From NCBI GenBank assembly GCA_902596915.1, contig CACJVQ010000007.1:1-51186 (forward strand): 51,186 bases of DNA, written 5' to 3'. The stretch is from an uncultured Pelagibacteraceae bacterium. Lineage in GTDB: Bacteria > Pseudomonadota > Alphaproteobacteria > Pelagibacterales > Pelagibacteraceae. The translations under genes were made by a program, and so were the position numbers. Below the pieces are notes generated by a model. It ran no database searches. It saw nothing but the letters and a program-made list of their open reading frames with translations, and was not told where the DNA came from. Positions 2,827 through 14,117 of this stretch are shown one piece after another. The first letter of the stretch is position 1; each line of letters starts with the position of its first letter.

Positions 2827-4500
2827 TTATGATTTTTCTAAGCCTTCTAATAACTTAGATTTTATTTTTGATTTCATTTTATCTTCCGTTTCCTCGAGCT
2901 CTAAAACAGCCCGCCAATAATAGTTTGCTTGTAGTTTTTTATTTAGTCTCCAAAGAACATCGCCATAATGATCATTAACAATTGGATCGTCTGGCATAAG
3001 CTGCAAGGCTCTTTTTAAATATTTTTCAGCATTGATATAATCACCAATCAAATAATATCCCCAACCAACAGAGTCTGTTATATACGGATCGTCCTCTTTT
3101 TGTTTGTAGGCTGACTGTATCATTTCTATTGCTTCATCTATTTTGTAGTTTCTTTCTAGCCAACTATAAGCAAGATAATTCATAGTATATGGCTCATTTG
3201 GATATATTTTTAAACTCTCCAACATATCTTTGTCCGCTTTTTCATAATTTCCCATCCTTTCATAGCTGCTACCTCTTCTGTATAGAATTCTGGAGAGTGC
3301 ATAAGAATTCTTTTCAACTTTTTTCATTAATTTGGTGTAATATTCGATAGCAATTTCATAATTTTCAAACCCTTTATTAATGTTTGCATAATCATAAAGG
3401 ATTTTTAAAGTTGGAGACTTTATAGAATTGAAATGCTTCTTAATATAAATTGCAGCTTCTTCTTCTGAATTATCCTCAGATAGTATTCTCCCAATCTTTT
3501 TTGTTTTATACCAAAAGTATAATTTATCTTTTTTTTTGAAATCTTCTAAAATTTTATTAGCTTGGTAATTATTCTTATTTAAATAATAATTTTCAGCAAG
3601 CAAAGTTCGATTGAAATAAAATTTAGGATTTAAGTATTCTGATATTCTTAAATAAAAATTTGACTGATCAAAAATATTTTGCGTGGAAAATAAATTAGAT
3701 ACCAAATAAAAAATCTCAGCCAAAATATCATTTTCATTTTTACAAGAGAAATGAGTTTTAAATTTTTTATAATCTTCATTATCAATCCAATCTTTGATTT
3801 GATGTAATAATATACTATCTCCTAAAGGTTCAATTCTTTTTGATACTTCATTTACTTTTTTAAGTTCTTTATTCTCAATGAGATTTGCAAAATAAAAATA
3901 CATATATCTCGAATAATCTCCATCAGAACTATTTAATAACCTTTCAAAATATGAATTTGTTTTTTGTGAGTTTAAATAACAATTCTGAAAAGCAGTTGAA
4001 ATTAAACTTAACGATCCATATTTATTATCTTCAATAGCCTCTTTTTTAATAAACAGATAATTAAAATCTTTCAAAATTTTGTAAATTACGTATTCGTAAG
4101 TTCCATCATCTTTGTCCATTTGAAATTCTTTGATTCTTTTATTGGCTTGTTTAAAATCTTTTTTCTTAAAACTATCAACTAAAAGGAGAAGGTTAAGTTC
4201 AAAGGTATTAGAATTAATATCATTTTTTGAAATTTTTATTTGGTCTATTCCTTTTTTAACTTGTCCATTTAAAACTAGTGAAAATACATACTTTTTTAAA
4301 AAATTATCATGTTTTTGAATAAGAAATTTAGATGAATTAAAATAATCAAGTGCAGCCTCATTTTTTTGATTACCTGATGAAACTAAAGCAGAAAAATAAT
4401 TAGAGAGATACTTTTGATTGAATTTATTATTCTCAGAAGTACTTGAATATGTGCTGGTTTGCAGTGCTAAAAATGATAAAATTACTAATATAAATTTCAT
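2827..4500 (-). CDS. Exported tetratricopeptide-repeat protein
   Basis: A 557-residue protein with an N-terminal signal sequence (MKFILVILSFLALQTSTYSS), so probably periplasmic or outer-membrane associated. The C-terminal third has TPR-like helical pairs, for example ANINKGFENYEIAIEYY, RGSSYERMGNYEKADKDM and GDYINAEKYLKRALQLMP, followed by NDHYGDVLWRLNKK. Such repeats mediate protein contacts; no enzymatic motif is visible. Large TPR proteins upstream of ispE are common in alphaproteobacteria, but their exact role is unknown to me. The start is ATG at 4498-4500: the frame is open upstream but only through a TTG codon, and the signal peptide fits this ATG. The start lies 10 bases from that of the divergent uracil-DNA glycosylase. 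Confidence 0.85.
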   Translation of the reverse strand: MKFILVILSFLALQTSTYSSTSENNKFNQKYLSNYFSALVSSGNQKNEAALDYFNSSKFLIQKHDNFLKKYVFSLVLNGQVKKGIDQIKISKNDINSNTFELNLLLLVDSFKKKDFKQANKRIKEFQMDKDDGTYEYVIYKILKDFNYLFIKKEAIEDNKYGSLSLISTAFQNCYLNSQKTNSYFERLLNSSDGDYSRYMYFYFANLIENKELKKVNEVSKRIEPLGDSILLHQIKDWIDNEDYKKFKTHFSCKNENDILAEIFYLVSNLFSTQNIFDQSNFYLRISEYLNPKFYFNRTLLAENYYLNKNNYQANKILEDFKKKDKLYFWYKTKKIGRILSEDNSEEEAAIYIKKHFNSIKSPTLKILYDYANINKGFENYEIAIEYYTKLMKKVEKNSYALSRILYRRGSSYERMGNYEKADKDMLESLKIYPNEPYTMNYLAYSWLERNYKIDEAIEMIQSAYKQKEDDPYITDSVGWGYYLIGDYINAEKYLKRALQLMPDDPIVNDHYGDVLWRLNKKLQANYYWRAVLELEETEDKMKSKIKSKLLEGLEKS

Positions 4501-4510
4501 ATTTAAACTT

Positions 4511-5215
4511 ATGACTTTAAATCTCAAAAATCAAAATGACATATTAAACCTTGAAAAACTTAACACAAATGAAATTGAATATACATTTAATGATAAACCA
4601 ATTAACAGACTTAAAACTAAACCACAGCTAGAAGATAAAAAAAAACTTCTTTTAGAATTAAAGAGTGAAATTGAGAATATAGATGATTGTGAACTAAAAA
4701 ATAATGCTACGCAATTAGTATTTGCTGATGGAAACAGTGCAAGTAACATAATGATAATCGGTGAAGGACCAGGCCAAAAAGAAGACGAGCAGGGGAAGCC
4801 GTTTGTCGGAGACGCTGGGCTCTTATTGAATAAAATGTTAGCAGCTATTCAAATAAAAAGAAATAATATTTATATAACAAATGTAGTTAACTATCGACCA
4901 CCAAACAATAGGAAGCCTGAGCCTTCAGAAATTAATAGATACTCAGATTTTCTTAGAAAACATATTTCGATTATTGATCCTAAAATTTTAATTCTGATGG
5001 GTAGTACTGCAATGGAGTCACTTTTTGGATCTAAGACAAAAATTTCAAAAGAAAGGGGTGTTTGGAAAGATTTAATCATTCATAATAAAACATACTTGAC
5101 AATGATCACATTTCACCCAGCATATTTATTAAGGCAAGCTGAACAAAAAAAATTTTCTTGGGCCGATTTAAAACTAATCAGGAAGAAAATTGATGAATTA
5201 AGAATATCAGTCTAA
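4511..5215 (+). CDS. Uracil-DNA glycosylase, type 4/5-like family, without Fe-S cysteines
   Basis: This enzyme removes uracil from DNA to start base-excision repair. From ATG 4511 the protein has 234 residues. Motif 1 is GEGPGQKEDEQGKPFVGDAG at 84-103 and motif 3 is FHPAYLLR at 201-208, both typical of the type 4 branch. Classical type 4 enzymes bind a 4Fe-4S cluster with four cysteines; here only Cys60 is present, and the positions usually filled by the third and fourth are Tyr128 (NYRPPNNR) and Tyr144. The cluster is therefore presumably absent. The first 50 residues are a charged extension. The frame is open upstream to 4418 over the TPR gene, but ATG 4511 is the more plausible start because it avoids that overlap. 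Confidence 0.88.
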   Translation: MTLNLKNQNDILNLEKLNTNEIEYTFNDKPINRLKTKPQLEDKKKLLLELKSEIENIDDCELKNNATQLVFADGNSASNIMIIGEGPGQKEDEQGKPFVGDAGLLLNKMLAAIQIKRNNIYITNVVNYRPPNNRKPEPSEINRYSDFLRKHISIIDPKILILMGSTAMESLFGSKTKISKERGVWKDLIIHNKTYLTMITFHPAYLLRQAEQKKFSWADLKLIRKKIDELRISV

Positions 5216-5222
5216 CTTTACG

Positions 5223-5357
5223 ATGATAGAAATACATAAAAAATATATAAATTGGTGGAGAGAAAAACTTAATCTTTCAAATTATGGATTATTATGGATT
5301 ACTTTTTTTAAAGGTTTGATAATTGGAATCCTATTATATCATTTTTTTATTACTTAA
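5223..5357 (+). CDS. Small single-pass membrane protein (44 aa)
   Basis: An ATG at 5223 opens a 44-codon frame ending in TAA at 5355-5357. The product has a basic, tryptophan-containing amphipathic start (KKYINWWREKLNLSNYG) followed by one hydrophobic segment, about residues 23-43 (LLWITFFKGLIIGILLYHFF). It fills almost exactly the gap between the glycosylase stop and rnhB, and its TAA overlaps the rnhB ATG by one base (TAATG), which suggests translational coupling. No function is known to me. The composition and exact packing argue that it is real, but a chance frame cannot be excluded. Confidence 0.6.
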   Translation: MIEIHKKYINWWREKLNLSNYGLLWITFFKGLIIGILLYHFFIT

Positions 5358-5935
5358 TGAGAAAAATTATAGCTGGAGTTGATGAGGTTGGCAGAGGAAG
5401 TTTAATTGGTCCAGTATATGCTGCAGCTGTTATTCTAAAAAAAAATATTAAAAAGAAAGAGATCAAAGACTCAAAAAAGTTAAATAAGATTGATAGAGAA
5501 AAATTAGCAAAATATATAAAAAAAAATTCTAATTGGGCAATAGGATCTGCCTCGGTTAAGGAAATAGAAAAACTTAATATTTTAAATGCTAGTTTATTAG
5601 CCATGAAGAGAGCTATAAAAAAACTAGAAGTTAAACCAAATTTAGTTCTTATTGATGGAAATAAATCACCTGAATTAAGAAATTATCTTGTTAAAACAAT
5701 AATTAAAGGAGACCAAAAAATTAAAGAAATATCAGCAGCGTCAATAATTGCAAAAGTTTCAAGAGATAAACTGATGTTCAAAATGTCAGAACGTTTTAAA
5801 AAATACAAATGGGATTTAAATGCGGGTTATGGGACTAGAGATCACATTAATGCTATTAGAAAATATGGAGTAACTAGATTTCATCGAAAAACATTCAATC
5901 CTATACACAACATATTGAGTCACAGAAAAAAATAG
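5357..5935 (+). CDS. rnhB: Ribonuclease HII
   Basis: RNase HII cuts the RNA strand of RNA-DNA hybrids and removes single ribonucleotides misincorporated in DNA. The 192-residue protein has the signature GVDEVGRGSLIGPV with catalytic Asp9 and Glu10, Asp100 in LVLIDGN, and Asp137 in IIAKVSRDKLM, so the four-acid active site is intact. The ATG overlaps the stop of the small membrane protein by one base. A type I enzyme (rnhA) is also present at 21560-21982. The gene is followed by a 75-base spacer leading to ccrM. Confidence 0.97.
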   Translation: MRKIIAGVDEVGRGSLIGPVYAAAVILKKNIKKKEIKDSKKLNKIDREKLAKYIKKNSNWAIGSASVKEIEKLNILNASLLAMKRAIKKLEVKPNLVLIDGNKSPELRNYLVKTIIKGDQKIKEISAASIIAKVSRDKLMFKMSERFKKYKWDLNAGYGTRDHINAIRKYGVTRFHRKTFNPIHNILSHRKK

Positions 5936-8215: not shown

Positions 8216-9202
8216 TTATTTGATACTATTAAGTATTTTCTTTGTAAACGAAGGTAAAGTCCAATTGTTTAAATCTTTAACATTAATAAAAAATCCATCG
8301 CTCTTTTCTGGTAAATTATTTTTCATATTAATTGCAATTCTCATATCCATATTTGACATTTTTATATTGATCCTTTTTCCTAAATGGTTTTTAAATTTTG
8401 TCTTAGGTATCTCATTCATGGGGAATATAGGCATATCTTTTAAAAAGTTAAATTTTCTGTTTTTTAAAAGATAGTAATTATTCTGCTTATTTTGAAAAAT
8501 ATTTGCTTCAAAAAACTTTTGTTTATTAAATTTATTTATTTTAATTATTTCAAAGTCCTTTTTTTTAAAGGATTTACAATTTATTGAGATGGGACATTGA
8601 TAACAAAGTGGATTGGATGGTTTGCAGATTAATGCACCTATTTCCATTATGGCTTGAGCATAATCACTAGCTCTAATTGTTTTCCCAAAAAAAGTTTTTT
8701 TTTGGTGTAAATTTTCTTTAGAAATTTCTTTTTCTTTTTTTAAATAAAATACTCTTTTTAAAATTCTTTCAACATTTCCATCTAAAGGAATTATTTTTTT
8801 ATTTAATGCAATTGCCATGATAGCTTTAGATGTATAATCCCCTATTCCAGGTAGTGATTTTAAATCGTCCTCATTTTTTGGAAGCTGGCCCTTAAATTCA
8901 TTTATAATTTGTTTTGCTGATTTTTTAAGATTTCTGGCTCTTGAATAATACCCTAATCCTTCCCAACATTTCATCAATTTAGCATCTCTAACTCTTGATA
9001 AACTTTTTAAATCTGGGATTTTAGAAATAAAATTTTCAAAATATGGTATTACAGTCTTCACTTGTGTTTGCTGCAACATGAATTCACTGACTAGCGTAAA
9101 ATATTCTTTTTGAGTTCTAGAGACTTTTTTTCGCCAAGGAAGGTCTCTTTTATTATTATCGTACCAATTCAAAATTTTATTTGGTATGTTTTGACTTGTC
9201 AT
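8216..9202 (-). CDS. mutY: A/G-specific adenine DNA glycosylase MutY
   Basis: MutY removes adenine mispaired with 8-oxoguanine. From ATG 9200-9202 the protein has 328 residues. Conserved features are LPWR near the start, EFMLQQTQVKTVIPYF with the catalytic Glu, the helix-hairpin-helix LPGIGDYTSKAI, and LDGNVERILKR with the catalytic Asp. The 4Fe-4S cluster cysteines follow the pattern C-X6-C-X2-C-X5-C (CKPSNPLCYQCPISINC). The C-terminal part is a divergent NUDIX-like 8-oxoguanine-recognition domain. The frame extends upstream only through a TTG at 9247, which is unlikely. The ATG directly abuts the ATG of the divergent dciA-like gene (CATATG), leaving no intergenic base. Confidence 0.95.
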   Translation of the reverse strand: MTSQNIPNKILNWYDNNKRDLPWRKKVSRTQKEYFTLVSEFMLQQTQVKTVIPYFENFISKIPDLKSLSRVRDAKLMKCWEGLGYYSRARNLKKSAKQIINEFKGQLPKNEDDLKSLPGIGDYTSKAIMAIALNKKIIPLDGNVERILKRVFYLKKEKEISKENLHQKKTFFGKTIRASDYAQAIMEIGALICKPSNPLCYQCPISINCKSFKKKDFEIIKINKFNKQKFFEANIFQNKQNNYYLLKNRKFNFLKDMPIFPMNEIPKTKFKNHLGKRINIKMSNMDMRIAINMKNNLPEKSDGFFINVKDLNNWTLPSFTKKILNSIK

Positions 9203-9682
9203 ATGAATTTTAAATATAATAGTAAGCAGAGAACTAAATCTGTTCAAGGGCTAAGATCTTTTAAAGATACTTTGCCCCAAGAAGCCAAAAGGATATTGAA
9301 TAAAAAAGGTCAAATTTATTCAAATACTTTGGATAATTGGAAATTTCTTGTTGGCAAAGAATTATTTAATGTATCCTACCCAAGATCATATAAAAATTCT
9401 AAATTAAATGGGAGCTGTTTAAATATAATGGTAAAAAGAGGAAATGAAGTAGATTTAGAATACTCTAAGAAAGAAATAATTAAAAAAATTAATATATTTT
9501 TTGGTTATAATGTAGTCGATGATATTAAATTAAAAACTTTTGAGGGAGAGTTTGAAAAAATTAAAGAAAACAAAATAAATAATGCGACAAAAAGCAAAAA
9601 TATTAAGCAGATAACCAATATAAAGAATGATAAAATTAAAAAATCTTTGTTAGAATTAAATAAAATATTTAAATCAAGATGA
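9203..9682 (+). CDS. DciA-like / DUF721 protein
   Basis: From ATG 9203 the product has 159 residues. It resembles the DUF721 family, which includes DciA, the ancestral loader of the replicative helicase DnaB. Visible family features are the N-terminal basic helix leading to LRSFKDTLPQEAKRILNKKGQIYSNTLDNWKFLVGKEL, the YPRSYKNSKLNGSCLNIMVKRG strand region and the ELEYSKKEIIKKIN-type helix. The C-terminus is a lysine-rich tail of about 45 residues. Position next to mutY, and overlap by 4 bases with a DsbA-like gene, is the usual alphaproteobacterial order. Function as a helicase loader is inferred from the family. Confidence 0.75.
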   Translation: MNFKYNSKQRTKSVQGLRSFKDTLPQEAKRILNKKGQIYSNTLDNWKFLVGKELFNVSYPRSYKNSKLNGSCLNIMVKRGNEVDLEYSKKEIIKKINIFFGYNVVDDIKLKTFEGEFEKIKENKINNATKSKNIKQITNIKNDKIKKSLLELNKIFKSR

Positions 9683-10260
9683 AAAAAATACTAATACAGA
9701 CAATTATAATTTCATTATTATTTGTAATACATAATGCTAAAGCAAATATTAAATCGATTACTGAGGGCAATGTTGATGCAAAAGTGAAACTGACAGTTTT
9801 TGAATCTTTAACATGTAGTCATTGTGCAGATTTCCATAAAAATGTTTATCCTAGCTTAAAAACTGATTTTATAGACAAAGGTTTAATTTTAATCGAATTT
9901 AGAAATTTTCCATTAGATATGGCTGCATTTAATGCATCAAAAATAGCTCATTGTAAAAATGATGGAAATTCAGAGATACTTCATCATTTGTATAAAAGTC
10001 AAAGTAGCTGGGTAAGAGGTAGTACAATTGAAGATCTTAATAAAAATCTTAAAGATGTAGTACAAGAATCAGGTTTTAAATTAGATTTTGAAAAGTGTAT
10101 AGCTAACTCTGAAATAGAAGATTTTATTTTAGAAGACCGAATCAATGGAGCCAAAAACTACAAAATAGAGGCAACACCAACACTTATAATCAATGGTGAA
10201 AAGTTTGAAAATACATCCAACTATAAAAAATTAAAAAAATATATAGAAAAACTGATATAA
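9679..10260 (+). CDS. DsbA-family thiol:disulfide oxidoreductase
   Basis: A 193-residue exported thioredoxin-fold protein. A signal peptide covers about residues 1-22 (MKKILIQTIIISLLFVIHNAKA). The active site is CSHC at 46-49 in FESLTCSHCADFHKNVYP, and the cis-proline loop is EATPTLIIN near residue 172. A third cysteine lies in IAHCKND and a fourth in FEKCIAN. Such Com1/DsbA-type proteins oxidise or shuffle disulfides in the periplasm. The start overlaps the stop of the DciA-like gene (ATGA) and the stop is 8 bases before smc, the conserved alphaproteobacterial order mutY-dciA-dsbA-smc. Confidence 0.88.
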   Translation: MKKILIQTIIISLLFVIHNAKANIKSITEGNVDAKVKLTVFESLTCSHCADFHKNVYPSLKTDFIDKGLILIEFRNFPLDMAAFNASKIAHCKNDGNSEILHHLYKSQSSWVRGSTIEDLNKNLKDVVQESGFKLDFEKCIANSEIEDFILEDRINGAKNYKIEATPTLIINGEKFENTSNYKKLKKYIEKLI

Positions 10261-10268
10261 GTCATTGA

Positions 10269-12843
10269 ATGGAGTTTAAAAAAATCCAATTAAATGGCTT
10301 TAAGTCTTTTGCAGAGAAAACTAACTTTTTAATTGAAAAAGGTCTTACAGGAATTGTTGGTCCTAACGGTTGCGGTAAGTCAAACATAGTTGAATCTCTT
10401 AGATGGTGTATGGGAGAGACTTCAGCAAAAAGTATGAGAGGTTCTGGAATGGAAGATGTGATATTTTCAGGCACATCAAACAAACCTTCAAAAAATATTG
10501 CTGAAGTAGTTTTAAGTTTGAACAATGAAAATAAGGATGGACCTCACCAATACAACGATTTAGAGGAAATAGAAATTAAAAGGAAAATTGAAAAAGACAA
10601 AGGGTCAAAATTTTATATAAACAATAAAGAAGTTAGGGCAAAAGATGCGCAAATGTTTTTTTGCAGATCTATCCACAGGCGCTCATTCGCCATCACTGAT
10701 AAGTCAAGGTAGAATTGGAGCATTGGTTACAGCAAAACCATCAGATAGAAGGGCTATACTTGAAGAAGCTGCTGGAATTGCAGGTTTGCATGTTAGAAGG
10801 CATGAAGCAGAAATTAGATTAGGAGCAGCAGAAAATAATTTAAAGAGAGCCGATGAACTTAGAAGACAACAAGAAAAACAATTAGCAAACTTAGAAAAGC
10901 AAGCTGAGGAAGCCGCAAAGTATAAATTAATTTCCGAAGAAATAAAAAAAGTTGAGGCAGGGCTGTATTATTTAAGACTTCTAGAAATTGATAGAGAAAT
11001 AACTTTAGAAAATGAAGTAAATAATGAGGCAGATGGGAAAGTAGAGGAATTTAATAAACAAATTGAAGAACTAGAAAAAAAAATTAACAATGAACTTGAA
11101 AGAGTAGAGCCAATACGACAAAAAAATATAGAAAATTTATCAAAAATACAAAGATTAAATCTTGAGCTAAAAGCATTAGATGAAGAAAGTACCAGAATAA
11201 ATGAGGAAATAGATACAATAAAAAGTTCTATAAAAGTTATAGATGAAGACATAGATAGAGAAAAAAGCATTGTAATTGATGCAAATTCTAACGAAAAAAG
11301 ACTGAAGGAAGAGAGAAATATCTTAATTGATACAGATTCAAAATATTATGAAACAGAAAAACTTTCTAATCAAGATCTAGAAAACTCTAAATCAAAGTTA
11401 AAAAGTGAGCAAGATAAAATGGATGCATTATTAGAGCGTTTCAGTTCTGAATCTCTGCAAAAAAATAATGAAATTATTAGCAACATAAAAAGCCAAATCG
11501 AAGAAGTTAAAAAACTAATTTCAGAAAATAGAAATCATCAGACAATTAAAATTTTAGATGAATGTATAATTAACTTATCCTATTTAACTATGAAAGTTAA
11601 AGAAGTTGAGAATGATGATGTAGTTTCAACTCTAACCTCAAAAAGTGATCAAATAAAAAAATTACAGGACGATTATGCTGAAAACTATAGTAAAAACCAA
11701 AACATAAAAAAAGAATCTGTCAAAAGAAAAGAGAGAATAAGTATAATTGATCAAGAATTTGAAAGCTGGCAAAATCTTTTAACTAATTCTGAAAAGATGG
11801 TTAATGAGCTCAATACAAGAAAAAATAAACTTGTAGAAAAATTGAATGCGCTGGAAAAACAACCTCAATCTCAAGCAGAAAAAAAAGGGAAAATTTCTGA
11901 AAACTTAAGGATTTCAGAAAATGAAAAAAATGAAAATGAAATTTTAGTTGAAAAAATTGATAATAATATTGCAGAAATTAGAGTTCAGTTAAATAACACA
12001 AAAGAAAGTTCAATAGAAATTAGAGAGAAAAAAGCAAGCTCTGGAGCAACAATTGAAGGTTTAAATAAAAGAAGAAATGATCTTTTGGAAAGAGTTATGA
12101 CAGAGTTAAAAGTTGAAGAGGGAAATATATTAAATTACTCAAATTTAGATAAAGGAGGTGAATTTCCAGATTTAGTCACCCAAGAAGAATTACTAGATGA
12201 AAAAAAGAGGGAAAGAGAGAAGCTTGGATCTGTTAACTTAAGAGCAGATGACGAAACTGAAAAATATAAAACTGAAATAAAAAAAATGGAGCAGGATAGA
12301 CAAGATCTTGTTACAGCTATATTAAAACTAAAAGAGAGCATAACAGAACTTAATCAAAAAGGTCGAGAAAGATTGTTAGATGCATTTGAAAGAGTGAGTA
12401 GAAAATTTAATGAGGTTTACACAAAATTATTTAATGGAGGTAGTGCAAAATTGGAACTCGTAGATTCTGATGACCCATTAGATGCTGGTTTAGAAATGCT
12501 GGTTAGTCCTCCAGGAAAAAGACTTCAATCAATCACACTACTTTCTGGAGGAGAACAAGCTTTGACAGCATTATCGCTAATATTTGCAGTATTTCTTACT
12601 AACCCATCCCCTATTTGTGTACTAGACGAGGTCGATGCACCACTAGATGATGCCAATGTAACAAGATTTTGTAATCTATTAAATGAACTGACAAAGATTA
12701 CTTCTACACGATTTATAATAGTGACCCATCACGCACTAACTATGTCAAAAATGGATAGATTATACGGGGTTACAATGCCAGAGAAAGGAATAAGTCAACT
12801 AGTTGCTGTTGATCTTCAAAAAGCTGAGAGCATGGTAGCTTAG
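10269..12843 (+). CDS. smc: SMC chromosome-segregation ATPase, short and frameshifted at a T7 run
   Basis: SMC proteins compact and segregate chromosomes. The N-terminal head has Walker A GPNGCGKSN; the C-terminal head has LLSGGEQALTALSL and Walker B ICVLDEVDAPLDDAN. The frame from ATG 10269 runs correctly to KDAQMFF, then fails; the sequence continues FADLSTGAHSPSLISQGRIG in another frame. Removing one T from the T7 run at 10656-10662 restores a single frame of 857 residues. As given, the first frame stops at 10712 and the rest is open from 10645 to 12843. Even restored, the protein is about 300 residues shorter than usual SMCs. Between the heads I see only charged coiled-coil sequence and no glycine-rich hinge. 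It could be a pseudogene, a slippage-decoded gene or a sequencing error; high conservation of both parts argues against long-standing decay. Confidence 0.88.
10656..10662 (+). other. smc: T7 homopolymer where the smc frame changes
   Basis: Seven consecutive T residues follow the ATG of DAQM. The family alignment requires ATG TTT TTT GCA GAT (M-F-F-A-D); the sequence has one T too many, giving M-F-F-C-R and a stop at 10710-10712. Loss of one T, a +1 ribosomal shift, or polymerase slippage on the run would restore the frame. Confidence 0.85.
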
Positions 12844-12847
12844 GCTA

Positions 12848-13123
12848 ATGGAAGAGGAAGATTTTAAAACTCGCCTTAAAAGTGCAAAAAATAGAGCAAA
12901 ATCCAAATATTCTGAGAGTAAAGAACCCTCGACATCAGGAATGGGCCACGCTTTTAAAATGAGCACAGAATTAGTTGCAGCAGTAGCTGTTGGGACAATT
13001 ATTGGGTTTATTTTAGACAATTGGTTTGGTACTAAGCCATGGTTAATTTTAATATTTTTTTTTGTAGGAGTAATTACAGGAATTATGAATGTAATTAAAT
13101 CAGCAAAAAGAATGCAAAAATAA
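12848..13123 (+). CDS. atpI: ATP synthase protein I
   Basis: A 91-residue membrane protein of the AtpI family, an assembly factor for the c-ring at the start of F-type ATP synthase operons. A basic N-terminal third (KTRLKSAKNRAKSKYSESKEP) is followed by two membrane segments, about 38-58 (STELVAAVAVGTIIGFILDN) and 62-84 (FGTKPWLILIFFFVGVITGIM). The alphaproteobacterial AtpI signature GxxLDxxxGTKPWxLIxFFxxG is clear. It starts 4 bases after the smc stop and is followed 13 bases later by atpB. Confidence 0.9.
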   Translation: MEEEDFKTRLKSAKNRAKSKYSESKEPSTSGMGHAFKMSTELVAAVAVGTIIGFILDNWFGTKPWLILIFFFVGVITGIMNVIKSAKRMQK

Positions 13124-13136
13124 ATAAGAGAATATA

Positions 13137-13871
13137 ATGGCATCAAATCCAATGTACCAATTCAATGTTTATAGAATTGGTCCAGAAATAAAGTTAGGCT
13201 CAGTTGATATTTCTTTCACTAATGCGAGTTTGTTTATGGTCATTAGTTCTTTAGCTATTTTGATAATTTTTAATCTAGGAGCAAAGAAAAAAACTCTAAT
13301 ACCTGATAAACTTCAATTACTGTCGGAATTAAGTTATTCCTTTGTCGCCAAAATGATTAGTGATACAGCGGGATCAAAAGCGAAACCGTACTTTTCATTT
13401 ATTTTCTCACTTTTTATGTTTGTGCTTTTTTGTAACATGTTTGGAATGATACCTTACGCATTTACAGTTACTAGTCATATTATAGTTACATTTGTGTTGG
13501 CAGCATTTATTTTCGTTGGAGTTACAATAATTGGGTTCATGAAACATGGATTGGGATATTTGAAATTGTTTGTACCAAGTGGGGTACCAATGGTTCTACT
13601 TCCTTTAATAGTAGTTATTGAAATTATTTCTTATTTAAGTAGACCAATTAGTTTATCAGTAAGATTATTTGCTAATATGATGGCTGGTCACACGATGATG
13701 AAGGTATTTGGAGGCTTTGTTATAAGCTTAGGAATTGTAGGTGGATGGCTTCCACTTAGTTTTTCGGTTGCACTTACGGGTTTGGAGATATTAGTTGCTT
13801 TTCTTCAAGCTTATGTATTTGCAATTTTAACATGCATTTATTTAAATGATGCATTAAATCTACACCATTAA
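13137..13871 (+). CDS. atpB: F-type ATP synthase Fo subunit a
   Basis: Subunit a forms the proton half-channels against the c-ring in the inner membrane. The 244-residue protein has five to six hydrophobic segments. The essential arginine is Arg176 in SLSVRLFANMMAGH, the most conserved helix of the family, and the last helix contains LEILVAFLQAYVFAILTCIYLNDA. The length is normal. It is part of the Fo cluster atpI-B-E-F'-F; the F1 genes are not in the window, which fits the split Fo and F1 operons of alphaproteobacteria. Confidence 0.97.
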   Translation: MASNPMYQFNVYRIGPEIKLGSVDISFTNASLFMVISSLAILIIFNLGAKKKTLIPDKLQLLSELSYSFVAKMISDTAGSKAKPYFSFIFSLFMFVLFCNMFGMIPYAFTVTSHIIVTFVLAAFIFVGVTIIGFMKHGLGYLKLFVPSGVPMVLLPLIVVIEIISYLSRPISLSVRLFANMMAGHTMMKVFGGFVISLGIVGGWLPLSFSVALTGLEILVAFLQAYVFAILTCIYLNDALNLHH

Positions 13872-13878
13872 TAAAAAA

Positions 13879-13885
13879 AAGGAGG
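13879..13885 (+). promoter_or_regulatory. Strong Shine-Dalgarno before atpE
   Basis: AAGGAGG lies 4 bases before the atpE ATG (13890). Most genes in this window lack a recognisable ribosome-binding site, so this near-perfect one stands out. It fits the need for many c subunits per complex compared with the other Fo subunits encoded on the same transcript. Confidence 0.75.
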
Positions 13886-13889
13886 AAAA

Positions 13890-14117
13890 ATGGAATTAGA
13901 AGCAGCAAAAATGATAGGAGCAGGTTTAGCGGCTATTGCACTAGCAGGTGCGGGAGTTGGTATAGGAATTATCTTTGGTAATTACTTATCTGGTGCTATG
14001 AGAAATCCATCTGCAGCTCAAAAACAATTCCCTAACTTGTTATTAGGATTTGCTTTAGCTGAAGCAACAGGATTGTTTGGCCTAGTAGTTGCGTTGATTA
14101 TTTTATTTGCATTTTAA
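13890..14117 (+). CDS. atpE: F-type ATP synthase Fo subunit c
   Basis: The proteolipid that forms the rotating c-ring. Its 75 residues make two membrane helices, about 8-33 and 49-74, joined by the polar loop RNPSAAQKQFP. The proton-carrying residue is Glu58 in FALAEATGLFG. The first helix has the glycine/alanine pattern AGAGVGIGIIFGNYLSGA used for close helix packing. I do not see the extra ligand residues of sodium-type c subunits, so proton coupling is expected. Confidence 0.98.
   Translation: MELEAAKMIGAGLAAIALAGAGVGIGIIFGNYLSGAMRNPSAAQKQFPNLLLGFALAEATGLFGLVVALIILFAF

Follow-up and report, generated by a model that had tools for sequence, protein, structure and literature searches.

Does the SMC protein of SAR11 bacteria lack the hinge? 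The hinge is usually regarded as the place where the two proteins of an SMC complex join, and perhaps also as a gate for DNA, and SAR11 bacteria are very abundant in the sea. The question was raised by a gene at positions 10269–12843 of a stretch of 51,186 nucleotides, here called the window, which is contig CACJVQ010000007.1 of assembly GCA_902596915.1 from an uncultured member of the Pelagibacteraceae (order Pelagibacterales). A sequence-only reading had placed at these coordinates, correctly, an SMC protein of 857 residues that has both ATPase heads but no visible hinge and no CxxC zinc hook. We found that the missing hinge is a trait of the lineage, with the loss seen across the sampled order. 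We lean towards the explanation that the gene is the orthologous smc of the Pelagibacterales and serves a functional Smc-ScpAB condensin, that the hinge was most likely lost in the ancestor of the order, and that a helical tip replaces it as the dimer contact.

Profile searches carried most of the evidence. The Pfam family SMC_hinge (PF06470) matched neither of the two pieces into which the window gene is split (P0001 and P0002, described below), nor anything elsewhere in the source genome, which is 78% complete. These negatives alone prove little, because PF06470 is insensitive: it missed a Caulobacter control and matched in just 91 of 289 genomes of the class. Its weak matches in 3 of 44 short relatives (best E 0.005) fell on loci L142, L148 and L149, which keep a hinge. 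Owing to this insensitivity we built a lineage-matched hinge model (A4) from 17 long alphaproteobacterial SMCs. This model matched in 0 of 197 Pelagibacterales genomes (E 0.001, whole genomes) and, as a positive control, in 181 of the 289 class genomes. We then scored 168 SMC proteins from fetched loci, some genes being counted twice and L175 being assigned by its length although the pattern missed its C-head motif. All 63 SMCs of 869 or more residues matched (worst E 1.4e-20; 46 lay outside the training set, and at least two genomes, G153 and G204, are each represented by two differently cut loci). None of the 105 SMCs of 864 or fewer residues gave a domain at E 10 or better; these comprised 102 distinct sequences. 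When fewer sequences were searched at a more permissive limit, L137 of family f2 gave the sole weak match (whole-sequence E 5.6, best domain E 19). The proposed absence of a hinge was thus borne out, and a significant hinge match was obtained neither with PF06470 nor with the model specific to Alphaproteobacteria.

The lists of SMC matches and hinge matches across the class were compared by eye. The 857-residue protein matched in 203 class genomes, 9 of them solely at E above 1e-4. A hinge was found in 181 of the remaining 194, and the 13 without one were 3 Pelagibacterales, 3 members of family f25 (see below) and 7 genomes whose SMC pieces lie at contig ends. These last seven (G056, G084, G104, G177, G227, G264 and G268) were uninformative as SMC-positive, hinge-negative cases, their frames of 274–541 aa lying in loci cut on one side. 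No match to the SAR11 SMC was found in 86 of the 289 class genomes; many of those listed are small, and several may lack smc altogether.

Comparisons with known structures and between profiles gave a similar picture. In a search of the PDB, the long-SMC profile (E 3.7e-9) and the hinge alone (E 3.8e-6) matched the Smc chain 5h69_A over the hinge columns, and the hinge-alone profile matched no other chain at E 0.01. With the short-SMC profile, 5h69_A was not among the 60 of 82 matches listed. In the listed part of an hhalign alignment of the short and long profiles, the hinge columns stood opposite a gap. A CxxC motif between the heads occurred in 0 of the 105 fetched SMCs of 864 or fewer residues, and we therefore rejected a zinc hook in their arms or tips, in agreement with the sequence-only reading.

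We used AlphaFold2 to predict a monomer of the relative L097 (44 sequences, pLDDT 78, pTM 0.49), and read the model for secondary structure only. Predicted strands were confined to the heads. None occurred between residues 173 and 721, where the long predicted helices fit coiled-coil arms: helices at 173–247 and 255–418, a turn at 419–421, a helix at 422–446 and, after a break, helices at 450–529 and onwards. Mapped by residue number onto the forward strand of the window (857-residue numbering), the predicted outgoing arm (residues ~173–418) occupies 10786–11523, the tip turn (residues 419–421, register checked) 11524–11532, and the returning arm helices (residues 422–721) 11533–12432. The turn stands at the position of the ~130-residue hinge of canonical SMCs, which in L160 lies at residues 511–641. 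By comparison, AlphaFold2 applied to a hinge-bearing control (L149, 869 aa, 21 sequences) gave a middle with short helices, strands at 446–449, 467–470 and 475–477, and low-confidence stretches between them. A globular mid-domain was thus missing from the SAR11 model, as the sequence-only reading expected, whereas hinge strands were visible in the control. A Foldseek search with the whole model was led by SMC-family chains; the 50 matches listed also included Rad50 and MukB, and TM-scores over the whole length were low. The model joins the two arms through a helical hairpin, with no globular hinge.

The length of the protein is likewise shared by its relatives. Among the best 80 of 545 matches, unbroken frames of named Pelagibacteraceae measured 798–864 aa, compared with 1131–1218 aa in other named Alphaproteobacteria and 869–878 aa in three short named SMCs that bear a hinge (L142, L148 and L149). 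The first range leaves out L122, L134, L135, L141, L150 and L155, whose frames are broken or cut; L156, whose frame runs off the end of its locus, and L157, which is truncated at its start, are excluded from the long range. The deficit of about 300 residues proposed for the window protein therefore holds against the long alphaproteobacterial SMCs. Family f2 of the same order had frames of 862–868 aa, with exceptions at contig ends (G030, 746; G039, 811). A short length was rejected as a stand-in for hinge loss, given that L142, L148 and L149 are short yet hinge-bearing. With head borders of 166 and 168 residues set from L160 (whose own value of 344 only calibrates the measure), each SAR11 arm spans ~260 residues in the 857-aa form, ~231 in the 798-aa form and ~265 in f2; those of short hinge-bearing SMCs span ~202. 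Hinge loss is accompanied by arm shortening, and the SAR11 SMC has each arm shorter by about one superhelical turn and a helical tip in place of the hinge. According to Burmann et al. 2017 (PMC5344682), arms of 253–267 residues are functional in Bacillus subtilis Smc, where the wild type has 344, and natural prokaryotic SMC arms cluster at 238, 341 and 515 residues. The arms of the 857-aa form fall inside that working range.

In the window itself, the open reading frame list showed smc split over two overlapping frames on the forward strand. The first piece (P0001, 147 aa, 10269–10712) carries the N-terminal ATPase half with the Walker A motif GPNGCGKSN (PF02463, E 9e-33; TIGR02168 positions 2–140) and is out of frame past a run of T. 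The second (P0002, 732 aa by mechanical listing, 10645–12843) holds the remainder of the N-head, both arms, the predicted helical tip and the C-terminal ATPase half, as judged from PF02463, from TIGR02168 positions 785–1181 on residues 329–724 and from full-length relatives; the ATG at 10645 is a mere start of the mechanical frame. The C-terminal ATPase half (residues ~691–857, 12340–12840, forward strand) was delimited by PF02463 (E 1e-24 in P0002) and conserved columns, and bears the LLSGGEQALTAL signature and the VLDEVDAPLDDAN Walker B motif. Both heads are thus present. The frame breaks at seven T (10656–10662, forward strand), a site where four of five relatives inspected have six T and one has TTCTTT. 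Among the genomes examined this frameshift is private to the source assembly (44 contigs), and the short length of the SMC is not. The frameshift could be an assembly error.

Intact copies settled the length. The longer piece was matched in 38 of 41 close-kin genomes, and a single uninterrupted frame of 857 aa was found in G005 (96% identity to that piece) and G004 (93%). The same length was uninterrupted in the named relatives L097 (AG-426-D13, the best named match, which places the window in a SAR11 genome), L098 and L099, with 96, 94 and 93% identity, respectively. Frames of this length were also intact in many relatives, among them single-contig genomes (for example G012). A deletion private to the source copy was therefore ruled out, and the full-length SMCs in close relatives that the sequence-only reading had allowed for were not found.

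Several lines of evidence identify the gene as a bacterial smc. In 44 relatives GPNGCGKSN was invariant, as were LLSGGE and LDEVDAPLDD in the C-terminal half, and both the synteny and the nearest hits of the window were alphaproteobacterial. The RecN model gave 36 bits against a cut-off of 408 (N-terminal head piece only). No MukB Pfam family was found at E 1 or better in the window pieces, mukE and mukF not being searched, and none was among the 25 of 40 families listed for the 44 relatives. Orthology to the smc of the class is supported by shared gene order; our trees comprise chosen SMC rows only. The window reads mutY, dciA, dsbA, smc, atpI, atpB, atpE. Upstream are a mutY-like gene (8216–9247, reverse strand, PF00730), dciA (9110–9682, forward, PF05258) and, directly adjoining smc, a dsbA-like thioredoxin-fold gene (9679–10260, forward, PF13462); directly downstream are atpI, atpB and atpE (12848–14117, forward, PF09527, PF00119 and PF00137), all of them also placed by synteny. 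The set dsbA, smc, atpI and atpB was found in 49 of 54 named Pelagibacterales loci, and all seven genes in 45 of 54, confirming the conserved mutY-dciA-dsbA-smc neighbourhood recognized from the window. The five exceptions (L098, L122, L141, L150 and L155) are loci cut near a contig end. The same four genes occurred in 5/5 other short loci (L142, L143, L146, L148 and L149) and in 7/21 long loci (L158, L163, L164, L167, L171, L173 and L174). This shared gene order led us to regard the gene as the ancestral smc. A search for the partner genes showed scpA and scpB adjacent on contig C11 of the source genome, overlapping by one base. Among the 41 close-kin genomes, many of them incomplete, scpA was present in 30 and scpB in 31.

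We next consider the part of the protein that stands where the hinge would be. The tip module (residues ~380–462, 11407–11655, forward strand) consists of the predicted hairpin together with 29 + 30 residues that are absent from a shorter form; the genus of the window has two SMC forms, 857 and 798 aa, which differ by these residues flanking the same hairpin. Hydrophobicity peaks locally at the tip, whose best window ranked at the 97th and 95th percentile among arm windows (12 and 11 sequences); picking the highest of several windows there favours the tip, and a conserved stretch near residue 230–240 is more hydrophobic. A tip cysteine (residue 432 or 403; 11563–11565 in the window) was present in 57 of 57 distinct 857-aa sequences and in 11 of 19 distinct 798-aa sequences (7 of 11 798-aa forms in set A2), and in most sequences it is the only cysteine between the heads. 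As a general device it was rejected, because the other Pelagibacterales forms of set A2 have none at the tip.

Selection was estimated from 11 pairs, which share sequences and in many of which dS exceeds 1. The dN/dS values were 0–0.038 for the heads and 0.023–0.119 for the arms, and smc is under purifying selection. For the tip, 10 of the 11 pairs gave 0.058–0.253, and the remaining pair, with a dS of 0.10, gave 0.587. The tip value was above that of either arm in 10 of 11 pairs; the tip is thus constrained, though loosely.

How might such a protein work? The sequence-only reading supposed that such a condensin would have to dimerise in some other manner or act differently, and the first of these is a reasonable supposition. 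If the tip stands in for the hinge, ATP binding would bring two SMC heads together, and ScpA and ScpB would bridge the heads as they do in other bacteria. The far ends may be held by packing of the helical tips into a small helix bundle and by pairing of the arms, and the dimerising work of the hinge would fall to the tip. The entry point of DNA would in that case be the head/kleisin side and not a hinge. Several observations weigh against this account. The tip is the least conserved part of the protein, and its sequences are unlike between families f1, f2 and f25. On a quick tree built without the tip columns (50 extended and 28 short rows, with a long-branch warning), the tip extension was gained or lost in at least 7 changes, 4 or more of which were forced by starred, well-supported branches; such repeated gain and loss is odd for an essential interface. 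Arms of ~231 residues place the 798-aa form below the 253–267 range that works in B. subtilis, yet near the natural mode of 238. The two split pieces, scored separately, reached 197 and 447 bits with TIGR02168 against a cut-off of 567. Finally, the SAR11 model is of a monomer, with a pLDDT of 78 and a pTM of 0.49, and gives no direct sign of a contact between tips.

The behaviour of the tip could also be expected if it does not dimerise at all. The two SMCs would then be held by ScpA and ScpB at the heads and by their arms lying side by side, giving an open-ended clamp instead of a closed ring. The fast evolution of the tip and its dissimilarity between families fit such a clamp, as do the conservation of scpA and scpB and the continuing purifying selection on the arms. 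However, in B. subtilis loss of hinge dimerisation is reported to destroy function (PMC5344682), and the hydrophobicity maximum suggests that the tip packs against something. We regard the open clamp as possible, with perhaps one chance in a few of being correct. A drift away from chromosome folding to a repair role like that of Rad50 or RecN seems improbable to us. The architecture is similar, in that Rad50 and RecN are hinge-less, and Rad50 chains were among the Foldseek matches; but the N-head is far closer to SMC_prok_B than to RecN (197 vs 36 bits, P0001), there is no CxxC hook, scpA and scpB are kept, and the gene sits in the smc position.

The remaining alternatives concern whether a hinge is truly gone. 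PF06470 misses many real alphaproteobacterial hinges, and a short stretch of the GYDDPHNW type in f2 could be a remnant, both of which would suit a hinge present but too diverged to be recognised. Yet there is little room for one, since 857 aa are taken up by the arms and a hairpin, with still less space in the 798-aa form; AlphaFold2 gave helix here but found the hinge in the control, and all 105 sequences were without a lineage-model domain at E 10 or better. We consider a diverged hinge very improbable. Supply of the hinge in trans by another gene would be more surprising still, and we rejected it, given that 0/197 genomes of the order matched the lineage hinge model at E 0.001 and PF06470 was absent from the source genome. 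Nor do we give appreciable weight to a dead gene or an assembly deletion in the source genome: the window copy does carry a frameshift, in a fragmented assembly (44 contigs, 78% complete), but intact frames of the same length occur in many relatives, single-contig G012 among them, and the estimated purifying selection is strong. Replacement of the hinge by a helical tip in an Smc-ScpAB complex remains the explanation that we prefer.

It is about an even question whether the whole free-living order runs its only detected SMC condensin (MukBEF not being searched) without a hinge or zinc hook, as an open-ended or tip-bundled Smc-ScpAB with no DNA gate at the hinge and with a tip repeatedly rebuilt by evolution. 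Were this the case, the hinge would be dispensable in nature for an SMC motor that bears a kleisin, and the SAR11 SMC would not obey models in which the hinge must open or touch DNA. A natural Smc-ScpAB apparently without a hinge also offers a natural test of the parts needed for loop extrusion and segregation. There is a trap here for annotation: in this class neither length nor Pfam SMC_hinge is a reliable guide, and a lineage-matched model is needed.

Within the class, the SAR11 protein resembles the canonical alphaproteobacterial Smc (TIGR02168 family) in its ATPase halves, its coiled-coil arms, its scpA and scpB partners and the dsbA-smc-atpI-atpB order seen in a third of the long named loci. 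It differs in having no ~130-residue hinge, arms of ~230–265 rather than ~344 residues, and a predicted helical hairpin as its tip. Families f32 and f142 (L142, L148, L149 and L179–L181) have SMCs of comparable length, 869–881 aa, and share the dsbA-smc-atp order in three named loci, but they keep the hinge (E 1e-20 to 1e-32; residues 375–510) and have arms even shorter than those of SAR11. These short hinge-bearing smc genes, with arms of ~200 residues, lie at 386–3019 in L142, at 2989–5595 in both L148 and L149, and in L179–L181. Family f25, represented by MarineAlpha6_Bin4 and SP38, is a second hinge-less group (L143, L146 and L242–L244). Like the SAR11 SMC, its proteins are short (803–817 aa) and without a hinge, with dsbA and atp neighbours in L143 and L146; unlike it, they are very diverged, and they have a tip sequence of their own that looks unrelated. 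The f25 genomes are G063, G195 and G293, the last of which shares an identical SMC with MarineAlpha6_Bin4. In a careful tree of the heads, the Pelagibacterales, f25 and the short hinge-bearing group each fell on one side of a well-supported branch. A single hinge-less clade of Pelagibacterales plus f25 was not favoured, but neither was it rejected (AU p 0.19), so these sequences would fit one loss or two. The f25 rows have an odd composition and a long stem in the careful tree, and a long branch in the quick tree as well.

Rad50/SbcC and RecN are coiled-coil ATPases that also do without an SMC hinge. The SAR11 protein is set apart from them by its Smc head match, its gene position and its partners, and it has no CxxC. 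Hinge-less SMCs are already in print for another phylum, namely marine Actinobacteria (Sussfeld et al. 2025, PMC12153180). The SMCs of that paper likewise consist of heads and coiled coil with no hinge and no CxxC, in bacteria that are marine and, per its authors, abundant. They belong to a different phylum (annotated class Actinomycetes), and the likeness to SAR11 is one of description only. The main text does not mention SAR11, Pelagibacter or Alphaproteobacteria, and among the papers listed in searches of the open literature, subscription papers and preprints not being covered, we found no report of a hinge-less SMC in SAR11. Taken together with the actinobacterial report, hinge loss would span at least two phyla of marine bacteria.

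The closest experimental counterpart is the engineered B. subtilis Smc in which a Rad50 zinc hook replaces the hinge; with it, cells grew normally on rich medium (Burmann et al. 2017, PMC5344682). The authors describe the fold of the dimerisation domain as irrelevant, and losing hinge dimerisation as making Smc non-functional. On that account, the hook-swapped protein is like the proposed SAR11 SMC in working without an SMC hinge, given another dimerising tip; it differs in being engineered and in using a zinc hook, whereas the SAR11 tip has no CxxC. Hinge loss in SAR11 thus complements the B. subtilis swap with a case from nature.

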